Of a DNA stretch of 64,000 bases, positions 17,633 to 18,561 are shown piece after piece. Under the pieces are notes generated by a model. The model had not been told where the DNA came from, did no database searches, and saw only the letters and a program-made list of their open reading frames with translations. A program made the translations under genes and the position numbers. Positions within the stretch are counted from its first letter, which is position 1. Each line of letters starts with the position of its first letter. Source of the stretch: an uncultured Lachnospiraceae bacterium (GTDB lineage Bacteria; Bacillota; Clostridia; Lachnospirales; Lachnospiraceae); contig CAMNCY010000002.1 of NCBI GenBank assembly GCA_946534785.1, positions 1 through 64,000 on the forward strand, written 5' to 3'.

Positions 17633-17935
17633 TCAGCGCATCAGCTTCTGCAGCGTCTTTACCAACTCGTCTACCTTTTCCGTCCTGCCTTCCCGGATGT
17701 CTTCCGTCACACAGGTCCTTATATGCTCCGCCAGCAGCTCTTTGGTAAAGCTGTTAAGAGCACAGCCGGCTGCCGACACCTGCGTCAGGATATCCACACA
17801 GTAGATATCGTTCTCCACCATCTTCCGGATCCCGCGGATCTGGCCTTCGATCCGGTTGAGACGGTTCAGCAGGTCCTTCTTTTCACTTTCCATCCGGATC
17901 TTGTGTTCGCTGCAGCAGCAGGCCTTCTCTTCCAT
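17633..17935 (-). CDS. csoR: CsoR-type copper-sensing repressor
   Basis: 100 residues, all-helical DUF156 family. The Cu(I) ligands of CsoR are present as Cys46, His71 and Cys75 (YCVDI, EHIRTC). An extra N-terminal ACCCSEH cluster could also touch metal. CsoR is a tetramer that releases DNA when copper binds. Its own upstream region carries two GC-centred palindromes, one inside the promoter spacer, so it probably represses csoR-copA. Confidence 0.93.
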   Translation of the reverse strand: MEEKACCCSEHKIRMESEKKDLLNRLNRIEGQIRGIRKMVENDIYCVDILTQVSAAGCALNSFTKELLAEHIRTCVTEDIREGRTEKVDELVKTLQKLMR

Positions 17936-17958: not shown

Positions 17959-17975
17959 ATACCCCCTCGGGGTAT
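17959..17975. promoter_or_regulatory. Second CsoR-type operator
   Basis: ATACCCCCTCGGGGTAT is a 17-base near-palindrome with the G/C tracts typical of CsoR sites. It lies between the csoR transcription start region and the csoR coding region, about 24 bases upstream of ATG, and resembles the spacer operator centred about 36 bases away. Confidence 0.75.
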
Positions 17976-17989
17976 TACCTTACACTCCT

Positions 17990-18018
17990 ATAATATACCC
18001 CTTGGGGGTATTTGTAAA
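17990..18018 (-). promoter_or_regulatory. csoR-copA promoter with operator in the spacer
   Basis: Minus strand: TTTACA (18018-18013), exactly 17 bases, TATTAT (17995-17990). The spacer is itself the CsoR-like palindrome ATACCCCCAAGGGGTAT (18011-17995). A bound repressor would block RNA polymerase directly. Good match to sigma-A and CsoR rules, read by eye. Confidence 0.8.
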
Positions 18019-18040: not shown

Positions 18041-18203
18041 GGGTCAGGGGGCGAGTCAGGGGGACAGGTCCGCTGACTCATTGTGCACAATTAAACAACC
18101 CGCCAATTCAGTATTACACTGAATTGACGGGTCTTCAGAACTCAGGCATGAGTCAGCGGACCTGTCCCCCTGACTCGCGCCGCTGGCTCGCCCCCACTGA
18201 CTC
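18041..18203. repeat. Nested inverted repeat, REPIN/MITE-like
   Basis: Two perfect 28-base arms (18053-18080 and 18149-18176, beginning GAGTCAGGGGGACAGG) face each other. Inside them is a second hairpin (18098-18111 with 18119-18132, one mismatch). Outside them partial arms continue (GGGTCAGGGGGCGA / TCGCCCCCACTGACT). The GGGGACAGGTCC-type sequence resembles repeats mobilised by REP-associated Y1 transposases, which is recollection, not a search. No transposase is present in the window. Confidence 0.75.
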
Positions 18204-18208
18204 ACTGA

Positions 18209-18523
18209 TCAGCCGTGCAGGCCGTCGGTCTGTCTCTGCATATCTTCCACGACGATGTCATAGATCTCGCCCAGGGTCCTGCAGTAGGCAAGGACCAGCC
18301 ACGGCTCGTTCGTGTGGTAATGCAGCTTGATCGTTGCCTTTTCTCCACCGAAATCATCTTCTCCCGTGTCACCGGCAACAATGAGGCTGTCGCCGACGAA
18401 CTCGTCGATGATGTGATCGCGGATCTCATCTACAAGATCATCGCATTCGTCATCATCCATCCCGTAAACATCCAGGAGGAGCTGTGTATCATAGCGAAAT
18501 TCAATAACTTCCTTATGTTCCAT
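18209..18523 (-). CDS. Hypothetical protein, acidic
   Basis: 104 residues, not recognised. It is acidic with a DDDECDDLVDEI stretch near residue 25 and no membrane helix or signal peptide. ATG 18523 is chosen because AAAGGATAAG precedes it; the track's longer start reaches into ftsH. It follows ftsH by 38 bases on the same strand and may be cotranscribed. Its end abuts the inverted repeat. Confidence 0.75.
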   Translation of the reverse strand: MEHKEVIEFRYDTQLLLDVYGMDDDECDDLVDEIRDHIIDEFVGDSLIVAGDTGEDDFGGEKATIKLHYHTNEPWLVLAYCRTLGEIYDIVVEDMQRQTDGLHG

Positions 18524-18561
18524 ATTCTTATCCTTTCTATACCGTTTATCAGTGCTGCGCA

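Follow-up and report, generated by a model that had tools for sequence, protein, structure and literature searches.

The window analysed here comprises the first 64,000 nucleotides of a contig from an uncultured Lachnospiraceae bacterium, whose assembly is incomplete and fragmented (2.17 Mb in 230 contigs, 88% complete). Between a csoR-like gene and a short hypothetical gene, the two neighbours also named in a first-pass annotation of this DNA, lies a nested inverted repeat whose features are as follows:

17633-17935, minus strand: csoR-like copper-responsive repressor gene, the downstream neighbour, so named from its resemblance to CsoR
18041-18047, no strand: left outer partial half-stem (GGGTCAG), read from the sequence; half-stems are enriched outside copies
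18053-18079, plus strand: left REP/TIR arm, with stem GAGTCA (18053-58), loop core GGGGACAGGTCCGC (18060-73) and stem TGACTC (18074-79)
18080-18091, no strand: palindromic spacer tag ATTGTGCACAAT, adjoining one arm, recognised by comparison with other copies and with the genome G016
18098-18132, minus strand: inner hairpin insert ACCCGCCAATTCAGT / ACTGAATTGACGGGT, terminator-like on the minus strand
18150-18176, minus strand: right REP/TIR arm, with GAGTCA (18150-55), the loop core complement (18156-69) and TGACTC (18171-76)
18184-18204, no strand: right outer half-stems, TGGCTC (18184-89) and TGACTCA (18198-204)
18209-18526, minus strand: hypothetical gene, the upstream neighbour, YloV/FakA-fragment-like, with its stop just outside the element

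The nested architecture of arms, inner hairpin and outer partial arms proposed in the first-pass annotation is borne out both by repeat detection and by folding. Repeat detection places the main arms at 18048-18081 and 18148-18181 (34 nt, 97% complementary) and the inner hairpin arms at 18098-18112 and 18118-18132, and finds an outer partial arm pair of 16 nt; the folding energy of 18041-18203 as single-stranded DNA is -64 kcal/mol, whereas shuffled sequences average -23.6 (z = -13; none of 200 shuffles equalled it). What had been noted as outer partial arms consists of additional half-stems (GAGTCA / TGGCTC / TGACTC), and outside the elements of 33 copies such half-stems lie in the expected orientation 23 times versus once in the opposite one, at a density of 4.9 per kb versus a background of 1.07. 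The inner hairpin looks like the ATAGTATAAAC insert type after a deletion, and a terminator scan scores it on the minus strand (18133-18097, 17 pairs, T-rich tail). On the csoR side, two TACCCC..GGGGTA palindromes of the CsoR-type copper operator kind (17960-17974 and 17996-18012) overlap the promoter of csoR; neither operator is disrupted by the element, whose near end is about 100 nt or more upstream of the gene.

The arm core GGGGACAGGTCCGCTGAC occurs only twice in the window, as the two arms of this element (0.04 occurrences expected), in agreement with the single copy first noted there. In the whole genome, the same core has 76 + 80 = 156 matches at up to three mismatches, with none for the reversed control, and blastn with the element returns 110 pieces. 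The many dispersed copies by which the first-pass annotation had proposed to judge its reading are therefore present; of its suggestion that the element is a non-autonomous relic or a small active element, the non-autonomous character stands and the single-copy relic does not. The copy statistics are based on these genome searches and on 133 kb of fetched stretches, which yielded 40 complete inverted dimers and 29 single arms. Dimer lengths, measured arm to arm, cluster at 108-111, 205-213, 130-139 and 56-60 nt, and both arms are identical in 31 of the 40 dimers, though arm variants differ among dimers. Several copies lie at contig ends, as is expected if short-read assembly breaks in such palindromes.

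By home-made gene calls, none of the copies lies inside a gene and all are intergenic. Neighbour orientation was counted by hand from the same calls for the 32 copies that have a called gene on either side: 17 are flanked by co-directional genes, 11 by convergent and 4 by divergent ones, so that 28 are downstream of one or both neighbours. Flanking sequences show no target-site duplication of 3-8 bp above the level of shuffled flank pairs, and no GTAG was seen in the flank composition of the arms. Several genes (L063:2825-2845, and at copies on contigs C5, C81 and C168) stop inside an arm at the TGA of GCTGACTC, such that their last residues are encoded by the arm.

The orthologous site in a relative of the same genus (G004) is empty: no arm separates the hypothetical gene from the csoR that comes after it (95% and 71% protein identity, respectively), and the locus has a CsoR-type operator (TACCCC..GGGGTA) and a plain terminator. 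With a sister species holding the same two genes without the element, a repeat unique in its genome and conserved in place, the outcome that the first-pass annotation had set against its own reading, is excluded. Since the gene pair is syntenic, either the window lineage gained the element or the relative lost it, and insertion is favoured because arms are rare in other genomes: any arm is present in 7 of 61 genomes searched, the host included, and the exact arm pattern occurs in the host alone among 392 genomes of the order. The sister genome G016 (L264-L271) carries 38 arms in compact dimers, and no Y1_Tnp gene was detected in it at 96% completeness; its repeats are apparently orphaned from their transposase, and either copies can persist without the enzyme or the gene sits in a gap.

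An alternative to a mobile element at this locus is a host transcription terminator or attenuator between the hypothetical gene and csoR, given that the inner hairpin scores as a terminator in the direction of the upstream gene and that the relative has a plain terminator at the same place. However, a terminator needs no two near-identical REP arms, and the arms that enclose the hairpin recur over and over at unrelated intergenic places and are absent at the orthologous site. Dispersed copies refute a terminator as the complete explanation, which we consider highly improbable; a terminator role as a secondary function is possible.

A search of the host genome with PF01797 identified one intact gene, on contig C42 (L063:2825-3634, minus strand, 269 aa), the other match being a sub-threshold fragment with a stop; the TnpA_REP-like gene that the first-pass annotation had suggested looking for thus exists, with copies of the repeat around it. 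Its product matches Y1_Tnp (E = 1.7e-12) and C-terminal HTH domains and has the motifs NHVH, FQ and YILRNP; across 40 homologues NHxH, Y118, N122 and P123 are invariant and FQ is nearly so. While a sequence search of the PDB returned no match for the protein, a fold search with its AlphaFold model (pLDDT 89.7) did, the top PDB entry being 4ER8, the E. coli TnpA_REP bound to its REP hairpin (E = 5.6e-6). The NCBIfam equivalog REP_Tyr_transpos scored 49 bits against a cut-off of 80, and that identity is accordingly not claimed. One dimer overlaps the stop codon of the transposase gene, so that the last residues of the protein, GQVR, are encoded by a repeat arm, and in the nearest homologue (L164, 49% identity) the final residues are SRGQVP, which corresponds to an arm in the same register. 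A second dimer lies about 1.06 kb upstream of the transposase start, beyond another gene, and only the 3'-end copy adjoins the gene. Judged by its motifs, its C-terminal helix-turn-helix and its GGGGWSAS-type flanking repeats, the protein is a TIRYT, probably of TnpA_Y1 subclass 2.1 as assigned by motifs, and this single gene probably spreads the dispersed hairpin copies.

The association between repeat and transposase extends beyond one genome. We compared the sequence preceding each homologous gene with that surrounding the gene's stop codon, and an inverted-repeat score of at least 20 was found in 42 of 93 homologous loci versus 1 of 186 mismatched pairs; this test was used in place of a bare count of GGGGWSA around homologous genes, which was weak because most homologous loci use GGGGACGGTTCT. 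Each arm is itself a hairpin in which the self-complementary stem varies freely between loci and the core is fixed, and a stem flanking the loop core (stem score of at least 6) is present in 44% of arms versus 5% when flanks are swapped between loci. Among about 100 Clostridia loci the loop is GGGGACGGTTCT in most and GGGGACAGG near the host's own protein, which forms a clade with its four nearest relatives (support 99) whose loop cores are all GGGACAGG or GGGACAGTCC. Over all groups, core class is clustered on the tree (FastTree) beyond any of 200 shuffles; the loop motif follows transposase phylogeny, and repeat and transposase are associated as cognates by both position and phylogeny. The host's own arms, GAGTCA - GGGGACAGGTMCGC - TGACTC, share the design of other RAYT-flanking Clostridia arms, and their GGGGACAG fits the GGGGWSAS-type motif. 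Searching the literature for the motif strings turned up nothing but unrelated sequence strings. One further genome (G062; L166, L190, L237) combines three TIRYT genes with two abundant repeat types, GGGGACAGGTTC and GGGGACGGTTCC, with about 60 matches per strand in all, and offers a natural case for examining one-enzyme-one-repeat specificity.

What lies between the arms is more variable. In G016 the dimers span 44-54 nt (~52), with a near-palindromic spacer, for example ATTGCGCACAAT, between the two arms, and the tag ATTGTGCACAAT represents almost the whole spacer of this compact form; dimers of the host genome have the tag beside one arm together with an added hairpin of 55-160 nt. Type A inserts (GCCRCGARGC...GCYTCGYGGC), compared by position, occur 17 times, always adjoining arms. 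The 10 nt before the longest insert stem average 44% A and the 10 nt after it 47% T, the signature of a bidirectional intrinsic terminator. A one-way terminator was also considered and was dropped in favour of the bidirectional one, since the elements are not significantly oriented with respect to the gene upstream of them (about 9 of 14 co-directional cases). Both the arms and the inner stem have stayed paired where the two sides have changed (0 of 500 shuffles); in the arms, palindrome correction could account for the kept complementarity instead of selection for a hairpin used in transposition.

Within the long insert type is a structured core of ~100 nt (CGGGCACGCTCTCGCTC...GCTCGCNAAGGCCC), in which 32 of 43 pairs show both-side changes (13 aligned copies; 0 of 500 shuffles) and the basal stems are fully variable in sequence yet paired. 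Cores without arms also exist: two in the host genome, of which one is shortened, has a T-run and directly follows a stop codon, and others in nine further genomes of the genus. In all, 10 of 62 genus genomes have the core (L022:1545-1680; L273:505-640; L279, L281, L282, L284, L285, L286, L289, L290, L294, L295 and L297). In four genomes (G026, G008, G010 and G014) copies of the core lie inside a different, larger palindrome (ATGATGTTNAGGTCAAAAGG...). Rfam gave nothing credible for the element copies or for the long insert. One insert type is thus a separate, covarying structured element, perhaps an RNA, perhaps an element that lodges at the tips of hairpins, and its existence without arms indicates that the dimer picked up at least one pre-existing hairpin.

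Such strong covariation in the inner hairpins, the long-insert core included, and the location of most copies downstream of genes would also suit a structured RNA that spread, or was retained, for a function in mRNA 3' ends, its association with a transposase being incidental. We judge this very unlikely: it is the arm, and not the insert, that is most conserved, the loop motif of the arm follows the transposase clade, and the compact, insert-free form is dispersed as well. A classical MITE moved by a DDE transposase is equally unlikely, for despite terminal inverted repeats, short non-coding sequence and many copies, the element shows no target-site duplication above shuffled pairs and each of its arms is a hairpin with a loop motif common to Y1/HUH transposase loci.

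The near-identical dispersed intergenic copies, the strictly complementary arms, the empty orthologous site, the lack of target-site duplication, the copies at the transposase gene and the agreement of loop motif with transposase phylogeny instead lead us to conclude that the element is very probably a non-autonomous inverted dimer of a loop-tagged REP (TIR), REPIN-like in form, whose cognate enzyme is the TIRYT-type Y1/HUH transposase on contig C42. We infer that the element is mobile, and that the transposase binds, cleaves and moves it, by the following route. Each arm would fold into a hairpin in single-stranded DNA, with stem GAGTCA/TGACTC and loop GGGGACAGGTMCGC; the TIRYT would recognise the loop motif together with the hairpin and cleave with tyrosine Y118, and the dimer would move as a unit and insert between genes without target duplication, single arms being its presumed remnants. 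The spacer hairpin may be cargo gained between the arms, given the compact 44-54-nt form in the sister genome from which it is missing, and could act as a bidirectional transcription terminator. A terminator cargo would make insertions downstream of genes tolerable, which fits the preference for gene 3' ends, and in the window the spacer hairpin may replace the plain terminator that the relative has after the hypothetical gene. Should the inserts prove to be terminators, they would render a small mobile DNA harmless to the operons it lands behind and show how termination signals could move about a genome. More tentatively, and with somewhat less than even confidence, we propose a general scheme in which the transposases read a fixed loop motif on a stem of any sequence, leaving the repeats free to exchange their stems, and hairpin pairs capture and disperse host terminator-like hairpins and the unrelated ~100-nt element, thereby distributing terminators genome-wide.

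In relation to known systems, the first-pass reading of a REPIN- or MITE-like repeat linked to a REP-associated Y1 transposase was essentially right and is refined here: the element is of the loop-tagged TIR type of TIRYT transposases and not a canonical REP, which has a fixed GTAG tag at the hairpin foot (PMC6006769, PMC3733652). As in REPINs (Bertels and Rainey 2011, PMC3116915), two inverted REPs with a short spacer form a hairpin, extragenic copies are many and dispersed, singlets occur as remnants, and a cognate RAYT has copies at its ends, here a copy over the stop codon. The GTAG/GTGG foot is absent, however, the conserved part lies in the loop, and the spacer has gained structured inserts of 55-160 nt; lacking the GTAG foot, the family is filed as REPIN-like, of TIR type, rather than as a strict REPIN. 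Target-site duplications of the DDE-type MITE kind are absent from the copies. E. coli TnpA_REP (PDB 4ER8) is the best structural match of the modelled transposase, but it shares 21% identity with it, and the protein described here has an extra C-terminal HTH and another recognition motif. A close precedent is the TIRtron, in which TIRYT genes are bracketed by inverted repeats with a GGGGWSAS-type motif, some TIRs occur in dimers and families are moderately abundant (Di Nocera et al. 2013, PMC3733652). Here too a Y1 HUH transposase with a C-terminal HTH is flanked by such inverted repeats, and the family is a TIR family of the TIRYT kind with REPIN architecture. The main text of that study names no Firmicutes, and differences in the present family are that the motif sits in a hairpin loop on a freely varying stem and follows the transposase clade, and that dimers carry terminator-like inserts. 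New details are the loop-motif rule, the bare versus the hairpin-carrying dimers and the separate ~100-nt insert element; the rule provides a direct way to the repeat family of each such transposase and defines an oligonucleotide substrate for binding and cleavage tests. Finally, most TIRYT genes have been placed in TnpA_Y1 subclass 2.1, near whose members no REP-like sequences were found (Quentin et al. 2018, PMC6006769). The contig C42 protein has the subclass motifs (NH[VYF]H, W[EQ] or FQ, and Y---NP; here NHVH, FQ and Y---NP), great length and an HTH_23/HTH_28-like C-terminal domain, but its cognate hairpin repeats are clear and numerous in its own genome; a transposase branch for which no such repeats had been reported carries them, and a fixed hairpin-loop motif identifies them.
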